Under the pieces are notes generated by a model that saw only the letters and a program-made list of their open reading frames with translations, had not been told where the DNA came from and made no database searches. Of a stretch of DNA of 64,000 nt, positions 6,201 to 51,662 are shown one piece after another. The DNA is taken from NCBI RefSeq assembly GCF_004342485.1, contig NZ_SMBU01000009.1, positions 35,761 through 99,760 on the forward strand. The letters run 5' to 3'. Every line of letters begins with the position of its first letter. The first letter of the stretch is position 1. The translations under genes were made by a program, and so were the position numbers. The stretch comes from Roseateles saccharophilus. GTDB lineage: Bacteria; Pseudomonadota; Gammaproteobacteria; Burkholderiales; Burkholderiaceae_C.

Positions 6201-6410
6201 GCGCGGCTTTCGGGCCGAGCGCCGGGCCGCCCCAAGCCGGCCCGCTGGGGCGATGTGCGAGTGGGGTATCCCCCGCAAGCATCGCCGTCCCCGCGGGGGC
6301 TGAGGCCGGACACAAGGCGCCCAGTGGGCGATTTGTGCCTGCCGAAGAGCTGCGGCGCAAGCCGCGGCGCGGTCTGCAAGACCGGCCAAGGTAATCCTTG
6401 GACGAGGGGC
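6201..6410 (-). repeat. Dispersed structured repeat, copy A (3' of mtgA)
   Basis: Read on the minus strand it begins 5 bases after the mtgA stop codon and ends about 25 bases before the GTG of the next gene. It matches copy B at 14289-14506 over most of its length. Hairpins: CCAAGG/CCTTGG (6386-6401), GCCGCGGC-TTGC-GCCGCAGC (about 6350-6369), and a double stem at 6249-6286 where GGCGATG pairs with CATCGCC around an inner variable stem. The distal end is the conserved GGGCCGGCTTGGGGCGGCCC block (6221-6244 region, reverse strand). Confidence 0.85.
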
Positions 6411-6415
6411 TTCAG

Positions 6416-7129
6416 TCATGGCAGTTCCGCGCTGTTCATGCGGCCGACGATCAGGCCCGCGCGCCCCATGACATAGGGCGAGCCGGGCTGGCGCTCGAAG
6501 CGCTTGGGCGCCGGCAGCATCACGGCCAGGCGCGCGGCCTCGAAAGGGCCGAGCCGTGCCGCGTCGACGCGGAAGTAGTGCCGCGCGGCGGCCTGGGCGC
6601 CGAACAGGCCTTCGCCCCACTCGACGTTGTTCAGATAGATCTCGAGGATGCGGCGCTTGTCCAGCAGGCCCTCCAGCATCAGCGTGATGACCAGTTCCTG
6701 GCCCTTGCGCAGCAGCGTGCGCTCGCCGGACAGGAAGAGGTTCTTGGCCAGTTGCTGCGTGATCGTCGAGCCGCCGACGACCTTGGCCACGCCCTTGCCG
6801 CGGGCCTCGACGCGGGCCTGCGCCTTCTCGTTCTTCTTCCAGGCGCCCTTGAGGGCATCCCAGTCGACGCCGCCATGTTCGGCGAAGCCGTCGTCCTCGC
6901 TGGCGATGACGGCGCGCTTGAGCGTGGCGGGCAGCTGGGCGTCGTCCACCCACTGCTGGCTCCAGCTGACCTGGTGCTTTTCGCCCAGCAGCCGCACGAT
7001 CTCGCTGCGCTGGAAGCTGGTGGATTGCGGCGCGACGAAGCGCATCAACAGGATGCGGCCCGCAAACCAGAGCTGCAGGCACAACAGGGCCAGCGCCAGC
7101 AGGGCGAGCAGACGGCCGACGTGGCGCAT
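6416..7129 (-). CDS. mtgA: Monofunctional peptidoglycan transglycosylase
   Basis: 237 residues from ATG at 7129, which overlaps the aroE stop by one base (TGATG); a GTG one codon upstream is possible. MtgA polymerises lipid II into glycan strands in the periplasm. One N-terminal membrane helix (about residues 5-25) anchors a GT51 domain with ASEDDGF (catalytic Glu), the GGSTITQQLAKNLFLS motif and LEIYLNNVEWG. Length is typical. The aroE-mtgA pairing is common in betaproteobacteria. A dispersed structured repeat starts 5 bases after its stop codon. Confidence 0.96.
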   Translation of the reverse strand: MRHVGRLLALLALALLCLQLWFAGRILLMRFVAPQSTSFQRSEIVRLLGEKHQVSWSQQWVDDAQLPATLKRAVIASEDDGFAEHGGVDWDALKGAWKKNEKAQARVEARGKGVAKVVGGSTITQQLAKNLFLSGERTLLRKGQELVITLMLEGLLDKRRILEIYLNNVEWGEGLFGAQAAARHYFRVDAARLGPFEAARLAVMLPAPKRFERQPGSPYVMGRAGLIVGRMNSAELP

Positions 7130-7944
7130 CACAGCGACGCCCTCAGGGCTGCGAGCACCGGCGCGGTGTCGGGGCGCACGCCGCGCCAGAAGAAGAAGGC
7201 CTCGGCCGCCTGCTCGACCAGCATGCCGAGGCCGTCGCGCGGCTCCGCACCATGGGCGGCGGCCCAGTCGAGAAAGCCCTGTGCCTTGGGGCCGTACATC
7301 ATGTCCAGCGCCAGCGTGCCGGGCTTGAGCACGCGGGCGTCGACGGGCGAGGCGGCGCCGGCCAGGCTGGTGCTCGTCGCGTTGATGACCACGTCCTGTG
7401 CGGCTGGCGCGTCCGGCAGCGTCGCGGCGCTCAGGGCCACGCCCAGATGGGCATGGCTCGCGACCAGGGCCTCGGCCTTGTCGACGCTGCGGTTCACGAT
7501 GGTGATCTGCGCCGGCTTCGCAGCGATCAGGCTGCCCAGCACGCCCGCGCCCGCGCCACCCGCGCCGACCAGCAGCACCTTCAGCCCCGCGAGCGGCCGG
7601 CCCGCGTTGTGCTGCAGGTCGTTGACCAGGCCGGCACCGTCGGTGTTGTCGGCCGCCCAGCCGTTGGCGTCGAAGCGCAACGTGTTGGCTGCGCCGGCCA
7701 GTTCGGCGCGTTCCGTGCGCACGGCGGCCAGCCCGAAGGCCTCGAATTTGAAGGGCACGGTGATGTTGCAGCCCTTGGCACCGCCGGCCGCAAAGGCGCG
7801 CAGCGAGGGCTCGAAGCCGTCAAGCGGCGCCAGCAGGCGCTGGTAGACGATGTCCTGGCCGGTCTGCTCGGCAAACATCGCGTGGATGGCTGGCGAGCGG
7901 CTGTGCTCGACCGGGTTGCCGACGACGGCGTATCTGTCTTTCAT
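7129..7944 (-). CDS. aroE: Shikimate dehydrogenase
   Basis: 271 residues. AroE reduces 3-dehydroshikimate to shikimate with NADPH. The substrate site motif [11 protein letters not shown], the catalytic-lysine segment [10 protein letters not shown], the NTDGAG loop and the nucleotide-binding [11 protein letters not shown] are all present. It lies downstream of the TonB-family gene across a 70-base gap and overlaps mtgA by one base. Confidence 0.96.
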
Positions 7945-8015
7945 CTTGCACCCTTCGCGCGTCGCGCTGTCCCGCCATGCGGGAGCTGAGCTCCTTCGGG
8001 CGGCCGCGCGGCGCT
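7945..8015 (-). repeat. Short intergenic repeat between TonB-like gene and aroE
   Basis: The 23-bp block at 7993-8015 (containing CCTTCGGGCGGCCGCGC) matches 19924-19946 with one mismatch, in the opposite orientation relative to the flanking genes. It abuts the TGA of the TonB-like gene and fills the whole gap to the aroE ATG. Small hairpins (GAGCTGAGCTC, CCCGCCATGCGGG) are also present. Confidence 0.6.
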
Positions 8016-11624: not shown

Positions 11625-14288
11625 ATGATCCCGATGTCCCGCTCCGCGCTCGCCGTGGCCGCGTTGCTCGCCCTGTCCGCGCTGGCGCAGGCCCAGCCGC
11701 CCGCCGCACCCGGCGCTGCCGCGTCGGCGCCCGCGGCCCGCCCGCCCGTCGACCCGACCGCGCCCAAGCCCTTTGCCGACGTCATCAAGGGCGCGAAGGA
11801 ACAGCCGGGCCTGTTCCCGATCTGGCGCAAGGACGAAAAGGTCTGGATCGAGATCCCGAAGGAGTACTTCAACAAGCCCTTCCTGTTCAGCGTCAACGTC
11901 GCCAACGCGGTCGGCGAGCGCGGCCTCTACGCCAGCCAGATGCTGGGCGACGAGCTGGCCGAGTGGCGCCGCGTCGGCAACCATGTGCAGCTGATCGCGC
12001 TGAACACCAAGTTCCGCGCCGACAACGCGTCGAGCAAGCTTGCCGTCGAGCAGGCCTTCTCGCCCAGCCTGATCGCGGCCGGCCCGGTGGCCAGCGCCGA
12101 CCACCCGGACCGCAAGTCCGTGCTGGTGGATGCCAGCGGCCTGCTGCTGAACGACATCCCCGGCTACTCGACGCGCCTGGAGCTGGCCTACCGCCTGCCC
12201 TATGCGCCCGACCGCGCCAACTCCTTCATCGAGGCCAGCCGCGCCGACGCCCAGGTCTCCACGCTGACCGCGCGCGTGCATTTCGCGACGGCCCGCATCC
12301 CCGCGCCGCCGCTGATCCCGACGCCCGTGCCGATGCCGTCGCCGCCCCAGGCCACGCCCGATCCGCGCTCGATGTTCTTCAGCTTCGTCTACAGCCTCCG
12401 TGCGCTGCCCGAGGCGCCCGCGGCCATCCGCCTCGCCGACCCGCGCCTGGGCCATTTCTCCGAGACCTACAGCAACCTCGGCGACGATCTCAAGGCCAAC
12501 CCGCGCGTGCACATGATCGCCCGCTGGCGCCTGGAGAGGAAGGACCCGGCGGCGGCCCTGTCCGAGCCCGTGCAGCCCATCGTCTACTGGCTGGACAAGA
12601 ACATCCCGGCCAAGTACCGCGAGTCGGTCAAGGCCGGCATCCTGGAGTGGAACAAGGCCTTCGAGAAGATCGGCTTCAAGGACGCCGTCGTGGTCAGGCA
12701 GCAGCCCGACGACGCTGACTGGGACAACATGGATTCGACCCACGCGTCCATCCGCTGGTTCACCGGCGCCGACGTCGGCTTCGCCATCGGCCCGAGCAAC
12801 CGCGACCCGCGCACCGGCGAGATCCTGGACGCCGACATCGGCATGAGCGACGTCTTCGGCCGTGGCAGCCGCCGCTTCGCCGTGGACGACGTGCTGTCGG
12901 GGGGCCAGGCCCAGGCCCTCGGCGCCTGGATGGGCGAGCGCAGCAGCCAGGCCCTGGCCGAGCAGCAGTGCAGCTATATGGCCGACCAGGCCGACGAACT
13001 CGGCTTCGCGCTCGACCTGCTGGCCTTGCGCGATGGCATGGACATGAACGGCCCCGAGGCCGAGGCGCTGGCCCAGGCCGTCGTGAAGGACGTCGTCATG
13101 CACGAGGTCGGCCACACGCTCGGCCTGAAGCACAACTTCCGTTCGTCCACGACTGTCACCCAGGCCCAGCTCAAGGACAAGGCCTGGACCGAGGCCCACG
13201 GCATCTCCAACTCGGTGATGGACTACAACGCCTACAACCTGCCGCTCAAGGGCGAGCCGCGCGCCAGCCTGACGAACACGACGCTGGGTGCCTACGACTA
13301 CTGGGCCATCGAGTACGCCTACAGGACCCTCCCGGCCGAGCAGGAGGCGGCCGAGCTGGCCAGGATCGCCGCGCGCTCGACCGAGCCGCAGCTGGCCTAT
13401 GGCGACGACTTCGACCAGGGCGTCGGCGGCCCCTACGACGGCTTCGACCCGCGCACCAACCAGCGCGACCTCGGCGACGACCCGCTGGCCTATGCGAAGA
13501 AGCGGCTCAAGCTCAGCCAGGAGCTGTGGGAGCGTGTGCAGGGCCGCCCGGCCTCGGTCGGCGACGACCCGCTGCGCAACCGCCGCTCCGTCTTCGAGAG
13601 CTTCCGCCAGCTGGCGCTCACGGCCAACAACGTCAGCAAATACGTGGGCGGCATGTATGCCGAGCGCGTGGTGCCGGGCGTCACGTCGGGGCCGGCCTTC
13701 AAGCCGGTGGACAACGCCCAGCAGCGCGAGGCCCTGCGCTTCATCGCCACCGGCCTGCTGTCCAGCGACTCGTTCAGGTTTCGCCCCGAGTTCCTGACCA
13801 GCCAGACGCTGGACTACAACGAGTCGGACCGCGGCCTGCCGCTGTCCATCCCGGATGCCGTCGCCGCGCTGCAGGGCCGCGTGCTGGACCGGCTGATGTC
13901 GCCCAACACCGCGCGCCGCCTCATCGAGATGGGCGGCTACCTGCCCGAGGCCCAGCGCAAGGGCGCGGTGTCGCTCAGCGAGGTCTACGGCACGCTGCAG
14001 GCGGCCATCTTCAGCGAGGTCAAGGCCGGCGCCGAGGTCGACCGCATGCGCCGCAGCCTGCAGCGCGAATACATCAAGCGCCTGCAGGCCCAGCTGAACC
14101 GCTCGACCAATGGTGCAACGGTCTATGCCGACGCCTTCTCGATGGCCCGCTGGCACGCGAGTCAGCTCGCCAACGAGCTGCGCGCGGCGGCGGCCAAGCC
14201 GGGCCTGTCGGTCGAGACCCGCGCCCATCTGGCGGAGCTGCAGGACATGCTGAACAGCATGCTCAAGGCCTCGCTGGTGAGGAGTTGA
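11625..14288 (+). CDS. Secreted zinc-dependent metalloprotease (DUF5117/DUF4953 type)
   Basis: 887 residues from ATG at 11625 (a second ATG at 11634 is also possible). A Sec signal peptide (LAVAALLALSALAQAQ) precedes a proline/alanine linker. The catalytic domain contains the gluzincin-like motif HEVGHTLGLKHNF with His493, Glu494 and His497, preceded by a DUF5117-like N-terminal domain and followed by DUF4953-like C-terminal sequence. Expected location is the periplasm or outside the cell. The gene is solitary, with a dispersed structured repeat directly after its stop. Substrate is unknown. Confidence 0.93.
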   Translation: MIPMSRSALAVAALLALSALAQAQPPAAPGAAASAPAARPPVDPTAPKPFADVIKGAKEQPGLFPIWRKDEKVWIEIPKEYFNKPFLFSVNVANAVGERGLYASQMLGDELAEWRRVGNHVQLIALNTKFRADNASSKLAVEQAFSPSLIAAGPVASADHPDRKSVLVDASGLLLNDIPGYSTRLELAYRLPYAPDRANSFIEASRADAQVSTLTARVHFATARIPAPPLIPTPVPMPSPPQATPDPRSMFFSFVYSLRALPEAPAAIRLADPRLGHFSETYSNLGDDLKANPRVHMIARWRLERKDPAAALSEPVQPIVYWLDKNIPAKYRESVKAGILEWNKAFEKIGFKDAVVVRQQPDDADWDNMDSTHASIRWFTGADVGFAIGPSNRDPRTGEILDADIGMSDVFGRGSRRFAVDDVLSGGQAQALGAWMGERSSQALAEQQCSYMADQADELGFALDLLALRDGMDMNGPEAEALAQAVVKDVVMHEVGHTLGLKHNFRSSTTVTQAQLKDKAWTEAHGISNSVMDYNAYNLPLKGEPRASLTNTTLGAYDYWAIEYAYRTLPAEQEAAELARIAARSTEPQLAYGDDFDQGVGGPYDGFDPRTNQRDLGDDPLAYAKKRLKLSQELWERVQGRPASVGDDPLRNRRSVFESFRQLALTANNVSKYVGGMYAERVVPGVTSGPAFKPVDNAQQREALRFIATGLLSSDSFRFRPEFLTSQTLDYNESDRGLPLSIPDAVAALQGRVLDRLMSPNTARRLIEMGGYLPEAQRKGAVSLSEVYGTLQAAIFSEVKAGAEVDRMRRSLQREYIKRLQAQLNRSTNGATVYADAFSMARWHASQLANELRAAAAKPGLSVETRAHLAELQDMLNSMLKASLVRS

Positions 14289-14506
14289 CCCCTCGCCTGG
14301 CCTCGCGTCGCTGAACGCGAGCGAGTCTGGTCGGTCTTGCAGACCGCGCTGCGGCTTGCGCCGCAGCTCTTCGGCAGGCACAAGGCGCTCACTGGGCGCC
14401 TTGTGTCCGGCCTCAGCCCTCGCGGGGACGGCGATGTCCGCGGCATCGAACCGCGAACACATCGCCAGCGCGGGCCGGCTTGGGGCGGCCCGGCGCTCGG
14501 CCCGCA
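14289..14506 (+). repeat. Dispersed structured repeat, copy B (3' of metalloprotease gene)
   Basis: This fills most of the 304-base gap between the metalloprotease stop and the thioesterase start. Hairpins in order: CTCGCG/CGCGAG (14302-14321); GCTGCGGC-TTGC-GCCGCAGC (14348-14367); CACAAGGCGC pairing with GCGCCTTGTG (14379-14405); GGCGATG pairing with CATCGCC (14430-14466) around an inner CGCGG/CCGCG stem. It closes with the conserved GGGCCGGCTTGGGGCGGCCC block (14472-14491). It begins immediately after the stop codon. The remaining 86 bases (14507-14592) contain only a weak -10-like TAGGAT at 14561. Confidence 0.9.
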
Positions 14507-19500: not shown

Positions 19501-19866
19501 ATGAGCATCCACAACATCCTGCTGGTTGACGACTCCAAGACCGAGCTGCACGCGCTGTCGGAGATGCTCGTCAAGCGCGGCTACAACGTGCGCACGGCCG
19601 AGAACGGCGAAGAGGCGATGAAGCGCCTGGCCGAGGCCAAGCCCGACCTGATCCTGATGGACGTCGTCATGCCCGGCCAGAACGGCTTCCAGCTGACCCG
19701 CGCGATCACGCGCGACGAGCGCTATGTCGGCGTGCCCGTCATCATGTGCACGAGCAAGGGCCAGGAGACCGACAAGGTCTGGGGTATGCGCCAGGGTGCC
19801 AGCGACTACGTCGTCAAGCCCGTCAAGGCCGAGGAACTGATCGCCAAGATCAAGGCTCTGGGCTGA
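19501..19866 (+). CDS. pilH: Twitching motility response regulator PilH
   Basis: 121 residues, a stand-alone receiver domain with phospho-acceptor Asp54 (LILMDVVMPGQNGFQ), CTSKGQETDKVWGMRQGA and KPVK. The GQETDKVWG segment is characteristic of PilH. It works opposite PilG, favouring pilus retraction or acting as a phosphate sink. It lies 26 bases after pilG. An 83-base structured repeat separates it from pilI. Confidence 0.94.
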   Translation: MSIHNILLVDDSKTELHALSEMLVKRGYNVRTAENGEEAMKRLAEAKPDLILMDVVMPGQNGFQLTRAITRDERYVGVPVIMCTSKGQETDKVWGMRQGASDYVVKPVKAEELIAKIKALG

Positions 19867-19949
19867 TATGACGAAGCCCCCACGCTCATTCCATTCACTG
19901 CCCCCCGAGGGGGTGCTTCAGCGCCTTCGGGCGGCCGGGCGGCGCTGAC
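19867..19949 (+). repeat. Short intergenic repeat between pilH and pilI
   Basis: It starts right after the pilH stop and ends at the pilI ATG. It contains ACGAAGCCCC resembling the start of copies A and C, the palindrome CCCCCCGAGGGGG, and a 23-bp block (19924-19946) shared with 7993-8015 in inverted orientation. Being inside an operon, it must be transcribed and read through. Confidence 0.6.
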
Positions 19950-20480
19950 ATGGCGAACCGGACGGCACTCCGTGAATTGCAGCAGCGCCTGGCCGAGCGC
20001 ATGCAGGCGGCGCGCGAGCAGACGCTGATCGCGACCTGGCTTGCCGTCGAATGTGCCGGCGTCGGGCTGCTGTTTCCGCTGAAGCAGGCCAGCGAGATCT
20101 TCGCGCCCGTGCCGATCAAGCCGGTGCCCTATGCCAAGCCCTGGCTGGCCGGCGTTGCCAACCTGCGCGGCGGCCTGTTCACGGTGGTCGACCTGGCCGT
20201 CTACCTCGGCCTGCGCGAGCCGGTGCATGGCCGCGGCTTCGCGCCGCAGAGCCGCCTGGTGTCGCTGGGTGCCGACCTGAACCTGAATTGCGCGCTGCTG
20301 GTGGACCGGCTCGCCGGCCTGCGCAGCGACGAGCAACTGCCGCTGGCGGCCCAGCAGCCCGCCGGCCCGCTGCCGCGCTTCGCCGGCGCGCTGCGCCGCG
20401 ACGAGGCCGGGCGTACCTGGCAAGAGATCAATCTCGAAGCATTGTCGCGCCAGGAGAACTTCCTGCATGTCGTCGCCTGA
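19950..20480 (+). CDS. pilI: CheW-like adaptor PilI
   Basis: 176 residues with a CheW fold: LAVECAGVGLLFPLKQASEI, then ANLRGGLFTVVDLAVYLG, the conserved NLRG core that docks receptor and kinase. It should link the receptor PilJ to the ChpA/PilL kinase at the cell pole. The N-terminal helix (about 25 residues) precedes the domain as in other PilI proteins. It lies 72 bases before pilJ. Assignment rests on domain and gene order. Confidence 0.9.
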   Translation: MANRTALRELQQRLAERMQAAREQTLIATWLAVECAGVGLLFPLKQASEIFAPVPIKPVPYAKPWLAGVANLRGGLFTVVDLAVYLGLREPVHGRGFAPQSRLVSLGADLNLNCALLVDRLAGLRSDEQLPLAAQQPAGPLPRFAGALRRDEAGRTWQEINLEALSRQENFLHVVA

Positions 20481-20552
20481 TGCGGACCGCATCAAGACTG
20501 ACAGCCCGCCGCCTGCGTGCGGACATCACGAACATTGAAGGACGAGGGTGAG

Positions 20553-22907
20553 ATGAACCTGCTGGACAAGATCAGGGGAAAGTCCGAAACCGAGGCGCTG
20601 GGGCCGACCCCGCCCGAGCCAATGGACACGACCATCGACACGCGCGGTCCGGGCTTCGACACGACGCGCGCCGCGGAGTCGACGCTGGCGGGTGTCGAGG
20701 GCATGGCCCACGGCGATGTGCCGACGTCCATCATTTCGCAGGCCCTTCCCACCGATCCGGGCCCGGCCAGCGAGTTCGCGCCCAGCACGATGAGCTTCGC
20801 GCCGACGACGCAGGCCGCCGACCCGACCACGGTGCTGGACGGGCAGTCGGCCACCGGTGCCGACAAGCTCGGCGAGCTGTTCGGCCGCCACCGGCAGCGC
20901 GTGCTGACCGGCCTCGTCGTGCTCGGCCTGGTCGGCACGGCCGTCTCGGTCAGCCTGGTGCTGGCGAGCTCCAGCCGCAGCGCGGCCCAGGTGCGCGCGG
21001 CCGGCCAGGCGCTGATGCATTCGCAGCGCATGGCCAAGTCCGTGTCCGCGGCCCTGGTGGGCAACCCGGCGGCCTTCGGTGAGCTGAGGGAGTCGGTGGG
21101 CACGCTCGGCAGCGTCGTCACCAACCTGCGCACCGGCGAGGGCCCGCTGGCCATCGCGCCGGCCGCCGTGCAGCCGACGCTGGAGTCCATCAAGCCCCTG
21201 GTCGAGCGCGCCGAGAAGAACGGCAAGGTCGTGCAGTCGCAGGAAAAGATCCTGACCCAGGTCGGCCAGGCGCTGCGCGCCATCAACCGCCAGTCCAGCG
21301 ACCTGCTGGAGTCCGCCGAGGCTGTGTCGTCGCAGGCGCTGCAGATCGGTTCCTCGGCGGGCGAGGTCTCCGCGGTCGGTCAGCTGGTCATGCTGACGCA
21401 GCGTATCGGCAAGAGCGCCAACGAGTTCCTGACGCAGGAAGGCGTCAGCCCCGAGGCCGTGTTCCTGCTGGGCAAGGACCTGAACTCCTTCAAGCTCATT
21501 ACCGAGGCCCTGATCAGCGGCAGCCCCGAGCTGCGCCTGAACGCCGCGAAGGACCCGCAGCTGAAGGAACGCCTGCAGACCCTGCTGAAGCAGTACGAGC
21601 AGACCCGCACCCAGGCTTCGGCCATTCTGGGCAATCTGCAGGGCCTGGTGTCGGCGCGCGAGGCGCAGACGGCCATCCTGAACGACTCCGAGCCGCTGCG
21701 CAAAGGCCTGGAGCAGGCCGCTGCCGACCTCGAAAAGTCCGGCGGCGCCGGCTGGGGCCTGATCGCCTTCATGGTGCTGTCGCTGATCGCGCTGGTCGCA
21801 GGCGCCATCGGCTTCCTGCGCCTGTTCGTGGCCGACCAGTCCGAACGCGCCGCGCACGCCGAAGCCCAGCGCCGCGAGGCCGAGGCCCAGGAGCAGGAGG
21901 CCAAGCGCGTCAACGACGCCAACCAGGCGGCCATTCTGCGGTTGATGAACGAGCTGTCCACGGTCGCTGAAGGTGACCTGACGCAGCAGGCCACGGTGAC
22001 GGAGGACATCACCGGCGCGATCGCCGACTCGGTGAACTACACGGTGGAGGAGCTGCGCAACCTCGTCGGCCAGGTGCAGACGACGGCGGCCCGCGTGACG
22101 GACACGACCGGAGCGGTGGACCAGACCTCCACCGACCTGCTGGCCGCGTCCAAGGAGCAGCTGCACGAGATCCGCGCGACCGGCGAGGCCGTGCTGGGCA
22201 TGGCGAGCCGAATCACCGACGTGTCCGCGCAGGCGCAGACGACGGCCGAGGTGGCGCGCCAGAGCCGTCAGGCCGCCGAACAGGGCCTGGCCGCGATGCA
22301 GAACAACATCGCCGGTATGAACACCATCCGCGACTCCATCCAGGAGACGTCCAAGCGCATCAAGCGCCTGGGCGAGTCCTCGCAGGAGATCGGCGAGATC
22401 ACGGAGCTGATCTCGGACATTACCGAGCAGACCAACGTGCTGGCCCTGAACGCCGCCATCCAGGCGGCGTCCGCCGGCGAAGCCGGCCGCGGCTTCTCGG
22501 TGGTTGCGGAAGAAGTGCAGCGGCTGGCCGAACGCTCCGGCGACGCGACCCGCCGGATTGCCGCCCTGGTCAAGACCATTCAGACCGACACCCACGACGC
22601 CGTGGCCGCCATGGAGCGCTCGACGCGCGGTGTGGTGGAAGGTACGCAGCTGTCCGACGCGGCGGGCAAGGCGCTGGAAGACATCGACAGCGTGTCGCGC
22701 CAGCTGGACGACCTGATCGTGCGCATCTCCTCGCAGGCCAAGCAGGAGGCCGACCACGCCAACGAGGTCGCGTCCAACATCCAGCACATCTTCGCGGTGA
22801 CCGAGCAGACTTCCGAGGGCACGCGCTCCACGGCCCAGATGGTGCATGAGCTGTCGCGTTCCGCCGAGGCGCTGCGCGCATCCGTGTCCCGATTCAAGGT
22901 CGCCTGA
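20553..22907 (+). CDS. pilJ: Type IV pilus methyl-accepting chemoreceptor PilJ
   Basis: 784 residues from ATG at 20553 ([12 protein letters not shown]), with GAGGG just upstream; an upstream GTG at 20517 is less likely. A cytoplasmic N-terminal stretch of about 110 residues precedes TM1 (about 113-140), a periplasmic PilJ sensing region, TM2 (about 399-427), a coiled coil/HAMP and the MCP signalling domain with the hairpin tip [16 protein letters not shown]. The receptor senses pilus or surface contact. The 110-residue cytoplasmic extension before TM1 is longer than in the Pseudomonas protein. A structured repeat starts directly after the stop. Confidence 0.95.
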
Positions 22908-22910
22908 TGA

Positions 22911-23047
22911 AGCGCCCCTCGTCCAGTCTTGCCGCGCTGAACGCGGGCAATCCCGACCGGTCCCCCGAGGGGACGGCGATGCATGCGGCGTTGAGCCGCA
23001 CGGACATCGCCTGCGGGCCGGCTTGGGGCGGCCCTGCGCCGGTCCGC
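22911..23047 (+). repeat. Dispersed structured repeat, copy C (shortened, between pilJ and chpA)
   Basis: It begins three bases after the pilJ stop and runs to within five bases of the chpA ATG. It retains both variable hairpins: TTGCC-GCG-CTGAA-CGC-GGGCAA (22929-22950), and GGCGATG/CATCGCC (22975-23011) with an inner TGCGGC/GCCGCA stem. The conserved GGGCCGGCTTGGGGCGGCCC block (23015-23034) is also kept. The middle module of copies A and B (about 85 bp with two fixed hairpins) is missing. Confidence 0.88.
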
Positions 23048-23051
23048 CGCA

Positions 23052-50936: not shown

Positions 50937-51529
50937 GCACTCGCCGTTTCGCCCTTGCCGCGCTGGCCGCGCTCGCCCTCGCCGGCTGCCAGAAGGCCGA
51001 CCCCGACCGGCCCGCCTTCAAGGGCATCGATCTGACCGGCGCCGAATACGCCCGCGGCCTGAACCTGACCGACCAGGACGGCCGAGCGCGGTCGCTGGCG
51101 GATTTCAAGGGCAAGGTGCTGGTGGTCTTCTTCGGCTACACCCAGTGCCCCGACGTCTGCCCGACGACGATGGCCGAGGTGGCCGAGGTCAAGCGCAGCC
51201 TGGGCGCCGACGGCGACAAGGTGCAGGGCATCTTCGTCACCATCGACCCCGAGCGCGACACGGCCGCGCTGCTGAAGGCCTATCTCGCGAGCTTCGACCC
51301 CAGCTTCGTCGGCCTGCGCGGCAGCGAGGAACAGACCCAGGCCGCGGCGAAGGAGTTCAAGGTCTTCTTCGCCAAGGTGCCGGGCAAGACGCCCGAGACC
51401 TACACGATGGACCACACGGCCGCGAGCTTCATCTTCGACACCGAGGGCCGCGTGCGTGTCTACGCCCGCTACGGCGCCGGCGCCCAGCCACTGGCCGACG
51501 ACATCAAGCTGCTGCTGGCCGGGAAATAG
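50933..51529 (+). CDS. SCO1/SenC-family copper chaperone lipoprotein
   Basis: 198 residues from ATG 50933. The lipobox LALAGC (Cys19) predicts a lipoprotein. The thioredoxin fold carries the copper motif CPDVC (C72, C76) and DHTAASF with the third ligand His. SCO proteins load CuA of subunit II. It overlaps ctaB by four bases and closes the oxidase cluster. Confidence 0.95.
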
Positions 51530-51530
51530 C

Positions 51531-51605
51531 CCACCCCCTACCGGCTTCGCCGGCCCCCTCAAGGGGGCGCACCCGAAGGACCGGCGGAGCCGGATCCTTG
51601 GGTGC
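51531..51605. repeat. Palindrome-rich intergenic repeat after the SCO gene
   Basis: It starts two bases after the SCO stop and holds CCGGC-TTC-GCCGG (51541-51553), CCCCCTCAAGGGGG, and an imperfect 37-bp palindrome GCACCC...GGGTGC (51569-51605). Its GC palindromes and position resemble the other stop-codon-anchored repeats in the window, but the sequence is a different subtype. Confidence 0.55.
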
Positions 51606-51615
51606 CGCTGGATGA

Positions 51616-51643
51616 ACAAAGCCCCGGCGTGCCGGGGCTTTGT
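51616..51643. terminator. Bidirectional terminator between the SCO gene and rpoH
   Basis: ACAAAGCCCCGGC (51616-51628) pairs with GCCGGGGCTTTGT (51631-51643). The stem has 12 or more pairs and short T-runs on both strands, between convergent genes. Confidence 0.8.
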
Positions 51644-51662
51644 GCTGGAAGCAGGCCGAATC

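Follow-up and report, generated by a model that had tools for sequence, protein, structure and literature searches.

Hairpin-array repeats of a probably mobile, modular family lie mostly directly behind stop codons in Roseateles and Pelomonas

The three repeats A, B, and C found in the window (the whole stretch of DNA analysed, 64 kb) are best read, with a probability of roughly 0.6, as copies of a non-autonomous, modular hairpin-array mobile family that works like REP/BIME mosaics. An earlier note on this DNA had described three related elements, each close behind a stop codon and in the sense of the upstream gene; all three exist, their coordinates were right, and their orientation was confirmed. 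With the element core taken to run from CCCCTCG through the whole 3′ module, the refined cores start 6, 0, and 7 nt after the respective stops. Copy C does lack a middle module, as had been claimed, this module being an 81-nt cassette that is present in A and B. The copies and the genes upstream of them are as follows.

6209-6409, minus strand: core of copy A, full form, with a 29-nt type-a first hairpin
6381-6409, 6300-6380, and 6209-6299, minus strand: parts of copy A, i.e., P1/first hairpin, 81-nt cassette, and 3′ module (P1′, P2, P3)
6416-7132, minus strand: mtgA, monofunctional peptidoglycan transglycosylase (TIGR02070), stop 6 nt before copy A
11625-14288, plus strand: Met-zincin protease gene (PF16313), its TGA ending at 14288, directly before copy B
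14289-14506, plus strand: copy B, full form, 0 nt after the stop
14289-14335, 14336-14416, and 14417-14506, plus strand: parts of copy B, i.e., P1/first hairpin, cassette, and 3′ module
14430-14466 and 14472-14491, plus strand: hairpins P2 and P3 in the 3′ module of copy B
20535-22907, plus strand: PilJ-type methyl-accepting chemotaxis (MCP) gene (PF13675/PF00015), stop 7 nt before copy C
22915-23049, plus strand: copy C, short form without cassette, with P1/first hairpin at 22915-22961 and 3′ module at 22962-23049

The predicted RNA folds of the three copies were better than those of shuffled sequences (z of -5.1 for B, -3.0 for C, and -2.7 for A). Among Rfam families, only tRNA matched in the window at gathering thresholds, and a relaxed search around copy B returned six matches with E values of 1.5 to 7.7, all far below gathering scores. 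HEARO/OMEGA RNA was considered and rejected, RF02033 being found in 0 of 21 genomes at E≤1 and TGA stops not being enriched (see below). At the window edge (3-470), direct repeats with a spacing of 18 and 21 nt were also seen.

The family belongs to the Roseateles/Pelomonas clade and is far larger than three copies. A blastn search with copy B, in which 40 of 219 candidates were scored, matched at least 40 places in its own genome, itself included; they fall into two forms, with or without the cassette (query positions ~49-128). R1, a covariance model built from the 3′ modules of 27 copies and 90 positions long, gave 76 matches in this 5.77-Mb genome (150 candidates scored) and matched in 20 of 20 same-genus genomes (Roseateles/Pelomonas, own genome included), with 17 to at least 108 matches each. 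None of 20 genomes outside the genus was matched, and among 399 genomes of the order, searched with strict filters and 10 candidates scored per genome, R1 matched only the own genome and one other (two weak matches). Named records carrying the short form, among the matches listed, are mostly Pelomonas and Roseateles; the others listed comprise one Paucibacter, one record labelled Methylotenera, and unclassified Burkholderiales or Comamonadaceae. The P3 hairpin core, as an exact 27-mer, was found in 39 of 200 genomes and in 28 of 141 genera of the taxonomic family, own genus included, and its reversed control in none. No match to the element was found in the plasmids and phages searched, and no described Roseateles/Pelomonas repeat family in the openly accessible literature.

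From 5′ to 3′, an element consists of a short leader (frequently ATGAAG or ATGGAG), CCCCTCG, a first hairpin, an optional cassette of ~81 nt, CCCCCGNGGGG, P2, and P3; the P3 loop can hold an optional insert of ~75 nt, and some copies have a tail whose end resembles GGATAACTGAC and which abuts the following ATG. The first hairpin occurs in about three types and differs between copies A and B (29-nt versus 47-nt type). Among the 76 own copies, 18 have the cassette by length (16 by a counter with a motif cut-off), and string matching finds the P3-loop insert in 13. An alignment of 45 of the 74 distinct short-form copies had 93.2% of its cells paired, and 15 pairs were altered on both sides, with 99 cells of compensatory change versus 31.9 in shuffles, none of 500 shuffles being as high. 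The covarying hairpins are the first hairpin (P1b) and P2. A long-range P1 pairing of CCCCTCG with CGAGGGG finds no support in covariation, since 0 of 7 pairs changed on both sides and one pair was unpaired in 10 of the 45 rows. The constancy of P1 and P3 in this alignment is partly a matter of choice, because the row patterns fix the CCCCTCG end and the P3 loop; in a fairer alignment of 27 copies, from which copies with a P3-loop insert were left out, 6 of 6 P3 pairs were unchanged in 27 of 27 copies. P3, the conserved 27-mer hairpin, is thus conserved almost base for base, which is what one would expect of a site that a protein or enzyme recognises; a constant tetranucleotide head was not identified. 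In one genome (L223, G005 C12), unrelated DNA, perhaps an insertion sequence for which the repeat served as target, splits the P3 loop of one copy.

The question raised in the earlier note, whether matches cluster after stop codons in fixed orientation, was answered in the affirmative by the covariance-model search of the own genome: 61 of the 76 copies, against 3.1 expected, start 0 to 12 nt after a stop on their own strand, most often at 2 or 7 nt, and 64 of 76 lie on the strand of the preceding gene. Gene calls were made with our own script, i.e., a codon-usage model trained on the fetched DNA rather than a published caller. The background is given by the intergenic strand-positions outside elements, of which 2543 of 61516 (4.1%) lie at 0 to 12 nt, so that the binomial P is 6e-70; P values are merely a guide here, because copies within and between genomes share ancestry. 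For the 60 anchored copies with both neighbours called, the next gene is on the same strand in 44 cases and convergent in 16. In other genomes, 102 of 115 pattern matches among those listed lie 0 to 13 nt after a same-strand stop, the 115 being drawn from all 114 stretches listed, the first batch of 81 included. The 15 own copies that depart from the rule include four P2-less, antisense copies within 29 nt of start codons, several without a called upstream gene on their own strand, and one doubtful match inside a gene. Purely selfish repeats landing anywhere between genes could produce such a picture if the anchoring were what purifying selection leaves; the window is ~92% coding, so that tolerated space is small, and REPIN doublets are random in extragenic space according to the available description (PMC3116915). 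We nevertheless consider this unlikely, as just 4.1% of the intergenic strand-positions lie at 0 to 12 nt, yet 61 of 76 copies do, and the stop is the place taken even at sites where a stretch of spacer or a native terminator originally followed it, with tens of bases of spacer free at, for example, sites 5, 8, 21, and 23.

Clustering of 216 gaps yielded three further families, which, read by eye, are likewise set against stops; apparently unrelated families beside family 1, the one described so far, seem to use the same position. Their representatives in the window are as follows.

540-725, no strand assigned: family-4 repeat gap, between two convergent genes
7945-8014, minus strand: family-3-like repeat gap, after the stop at 8015
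19867-19976, plus strand: family-3 repeat gap, after the stop at 19866
51530-51662, plus strand: family-2 repeat gap of different sequence, directly after the TAG stop at 51529 of an SCO1/SenC gene

Family 2 (CCCACCCCCTACCGGCTTCGCCGGCCCCCTCAAGGGGGCGC...) starts directly after stops, with further copies at L071, L117, L088, L070, and L075. Family 3, which reads AAGCCCCCACGCTC...CCCCCCGAGGGGG...GGGCGGCCGGGCGGCGC and is also found at L101, is likewise positioned behind stops, and family 4 is palindromic (GGCGGGACC...GGTCCCGCC), lies between convergent stops, and is flush with both in L066 (C12:83879-83958). Modules move in these repeats. Within family 1, the 81-nt cassette is present or absent exactly: L417 and L432 have 59 identical bases from the stop, an 81-nt gap, and 53 identical bases, with two substitutions further on, and L391 and L426 show a similar, less clean cassette difference. 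In family 2, a homologue of the family-1 cassette is present in copies L071 and L117. The reversed cassette aligns with the P3-loop insert and with the cassette within family 2 at local scores of 27 to 66, against maxima of 21 to 23 over 300 letter shuffles (unreversed, 16 versus 25). Homologues of the cassette thus occur in further contexts and, inverted, within a second family.

The position of the element relative to genes varies with P2 in other genera, from which one locus each was taken in 23 of the 36 genomes with the 27-mer (L481-L503; 24 copies, of which L486 was left out). Specifically, 6 of the 7 P2-containing copies lie in sense behind a stop and 1 is antisense, whereas only 1 of the 16 P2-less copies is in sense and 15 are antisense. 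The P2-containing form is found immediately after stops, in the sense of the gene. The association of P2 with orientation has a Fisher p of 5e-4, which is overstated, because L488, L495, and L496 look orthologous and one locus was counted twice. In 13 of the 15 antisense copies, the CCCCTCG end lies next to a predicted start codon, at a distance of 4 nt in nine, 5 nt in two, 8 nt in one, and ~22 nt in one; the other two are the second copy of a tandem and a copy without the CCCCTCG end. Read in the sense of the gene, the start-abutting copies give GAGGGGC-NNNN-ATG, a spacing that is Shine-Dalgarno-like. The proposal of the earlier note, a mobile REP-like family that targets 3′ ends, thus stands as regards the clustering, the occupied and empty sites (see below), and the absence of an Rfam family; its restriction to 3′ ends is too narrow, because the P2-less variant elsewhere is antisense and abuts start codons.

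Stop codons could also be hit because the DNA target is NTGA, a specificity of HEARO/IsrB-type elements that is comparable to the target tetranucleotides of IS200/IS605, with stop-codon TGA being the only tolerated sites. TGA precedes 54 of the 61 anchored copies, the leader often reads ATGA or ATGG, and in 11 of 13 start-abutting P2-less copies, judged by eye, the start reads TCAT on the element strand. This explanation appears doubtful, however: TGA is not enriched over the background stops (299 TGA, 35 TAG, and 27 TAA; n = 361; Fisher p 0.35), the other 7 of the 61 copies follow TAG (4) or TAA (3), and a TGA-only null model places 27% of copies at stops, versus 54 of 69 seen. A more speculative possibility, to which we give rather little weight, is that the system targets coding-sequence boundaries as such, given several unrelated hairpin families behind TGA, TAG, and TAA, perhaps via R-loops or ribosome-free nascent mRNA at termination. 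P2 would then set the polarity, elements with it landing in sense after a stop and those without it in antisense, with GAGGGG in Shine-Dalgarno position a few nt ahead of a start; the copy L442, P2-less yet in sense behind a stop, speaks against a strict P2 rule.

Comparison of orthologous sites showed that copies are gained or lost as units. The family-1 element is absent behind the mtgA stop in 16 of 16 relatives and behind the protease stop in 18 of 18 (one of which is just 71% alike). Within 150 nt of the stop, the closest relative (G005) has an element at 5 of 23 comparable sites and lacks one at the other 18; these 23 were drawn from 27 sites, after site 6 (77% match, no matching stop) and sites 3, 18, and 47 (no ortholog) had been dropped. 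Two further genomes, G013 and G018, are 94.8% identical over one 3.9-kb locus, and 18 of 34 G013 loci have flanking DNA in common with G018 element loci. The unpartnered loci of this pair were readable in 18 of 27 cases (8 lacked a left match, and L397 was uninformative), and at 13 of the 18 there was no such repeat in the 80 nt examined. For the remainder, the other genome has an older copy (L399), a different repeat family at the same stop (L419 and L430), a decayed reverse copy (L421), or an apparent remnant (L386), so that some occupied/empty differences are losses or replacements rather than fresh insertions. At one site (L397/L399; G018 C12:1505961-1506180), two copies stand in tandem behind one stop. 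By eye, the mtgA stop is followed by a family-3-like repeat in G012 and by an antisense-looking one in G008; with stops re-occupied by differing repeats in this way, the position behind a given stop appears to be used again and again. Alleles without the element frequently have the stop overlapping the following start or almost adjacent to it, or a hairpin terminator after the stop. By eye, most relatives have a hairpin with a T-run ~20 to 40 nt beyond the protease stop, and a terminator scan of two of them called it; the own genome has a like but partly decayed sequence behind copy B, and the scan calls no terminator there.

That orthologous sites can carry the element in one species and lack it in another argues that the family is mobile. 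An improbable alternative is that homologous recombination or conversion exchanges entire intercistronic spacers, repeats included: spacers have indeed diverged far more than the coding sequence beside them, and one family can take the place of another at the same stop (L419/L462, L430/L465), yet similarity of the upstream coding flanks stays at 88 to 99% right up to the stop, and at several empty sites the genes simply overlap, without donor homology (L404, L435, L410, and mtgA in several relatives). An inherited functional 3′ untranslated region (UTR) element, a terminator or RNA regulator lost in some species, would fit the covarying hairpins, the sites common to species with stepwise decay by loss of P2 or P3 (site 24), and the at least one empty site keeping an apparent remnant (L386/L466), but it is very unlikely, being largely refuted by the empty sites (all relatives at the two window stops); different repeat families at the same stop in different species and the missing T-run behind the element also speak against it.

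The ends of the element, CCCCTCG.. and ..GGCCCGCA, are, by reading, not inverted repeats, so that it lacks the terminal inverted repeats of a MITE. The earlier note had seen no flanking direct repeats, and across 85 copies there was no pair-specific junction signal, the true junction pairs being no more alike than shuffled ones (mean best 10-mer match of 5.85 versus 5.86; z of 2.0 for the best aligned shift). ATGA duplications were suspected at mtgA, a suggestive single case, and at L404, L435, and L410; given the lack of signal in this pair-shuffle test, a target-site duplication, the other hallmark of a MITE, is not claimed. No autonomous copy was found. The own genome has one Y1 transposase, a RAYT (NF047646, 88.4 bits, cut-off 80; locus L238, G000 C29:44865), located between genes that we take to be dgt and gltB; the junction is conserved in the relatives' loci (L232-L243), and at least one Y1 match was found in every one of the 13 genus genomes searched. 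The motif GGGGTCGGAGTC and its inverse flank the RAYT in 12 of 13 loci examined, L244 being different. The flanking pair was also read as AATGGGGTCGGAGTCGATTA and its inverse, the motif itself lying shortly behind the upstream stop in many genomes. Within 23 Y1-type loci of the genus, R1 found nothing better than E 0.2. The RAYT was considered as the mobiliser, but the gene, although present, is flanked by its own inverted motif, with the element absent there, so that any link between element and RAYT is a guess.

In the preferred reading, a mobile family working like REP/BIME mosaics, a trans-acting enzyme, perhaps of Y1/RAYT type, would recognise P3 on single-stranded DNA and copy the element into gene junctions, and selection would retain those copies that leave stop and start codons intact. 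By its position, the element is best read as coming to lie in the 3′ ends of mRNAs and in the space separating cistrons, where transcription would make it the beginning of the 3′ UTR or an intercistronic spacer. The elements do not qualify as intrinsic terminators, since TTTT occurs within 12 nt after the element in 0 of 76 copies and TTTTT within 60 nt in 1 of 76, and the terminator scan called none at A, B, and C. By analogy with REP elements, a precedent for both effects, the element would most likely protect the 3′ end of the upstream cistron, its stable hairpins shielding that cistron from 3′-5′ decay, and uncouple the cistron that follows. The family thus offers a natural system for studying by what means mobile DNA locates the ends of genes, and how the 3′ ends of mRNAs and the junctions of operons can be rewired without breaking genes: dozens of copies per genome keep a fixed orientation and a few-base rule relative to stops, yet turn over between species. 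The P2-linked switch from sense after a stop to antisense before a start is, moreover, a testable structure-position rule.

Several described repeat systems invite comparison. To our knowledge, ERIC and Correia (NEMIS) elements are unrelated to the Roseateles element in hosts, sequence, and ends; they are described as structured repeats that insert into transcribed spacers and, once transcribed, influence the mRNA (PMC2229807, PMC3049150). Pneumococcal BOX, RUP, and SPRITE repeats resemble it in being small, modular (BOX A/B/C), structured, and of narrow host range, and SPRITE is described as enriched near the 3′ ends of genes (PMC3049150). BOX and RUP, however, have terminal inverted repeats and target duplications, none of which is shown in the Roseateles element, and SPRITE is terminator-like with A/T ends, whereas the Roseateles element has no T-run. 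The nearest described betaproteobacterial repeat found, compared by description alone, is BRE (Hot et al. 2011, PMC3110155), which the available text gives as ~90 bp, GC-rich, usually intergenic, present in Bordetella and Comamonadaceae, and suspected to be mobile. According to the same text, BRE is sometimes arranged in tandem arrays (PMC3110155), and this description sets it apart, as does its host range, R1 having found nothing under strict filters in 398 other genomes of the order but two weak matches in one. Units of REP/BIME are 20 to 60 nt long and the hairpin array here ~120 to 220 nt; no constant tetranucleotide head was identified here, and the RAYT lacks a flanking element, although RAYTs are described as always flanked by two REPs (PMC2817692). 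Membership in REP/BIME is therefore not proven, and the family is classed as one that works in the manner of REP/BIME mosaics. With REP, BIME, and REPIN it shares dispersed, intergenic, palindromic repeats, mosaic modules, hairpins in likely transcribed spacers, and one RAYT in the genome. Unlike REPIN doublets, for which the accessible description gives random extragenic placement (PMC3116915), it has a fixed sense and lies 0 to 12 nt from stops, a stop-anchoring rule that is tighter than described for comparable bacterial repeats.
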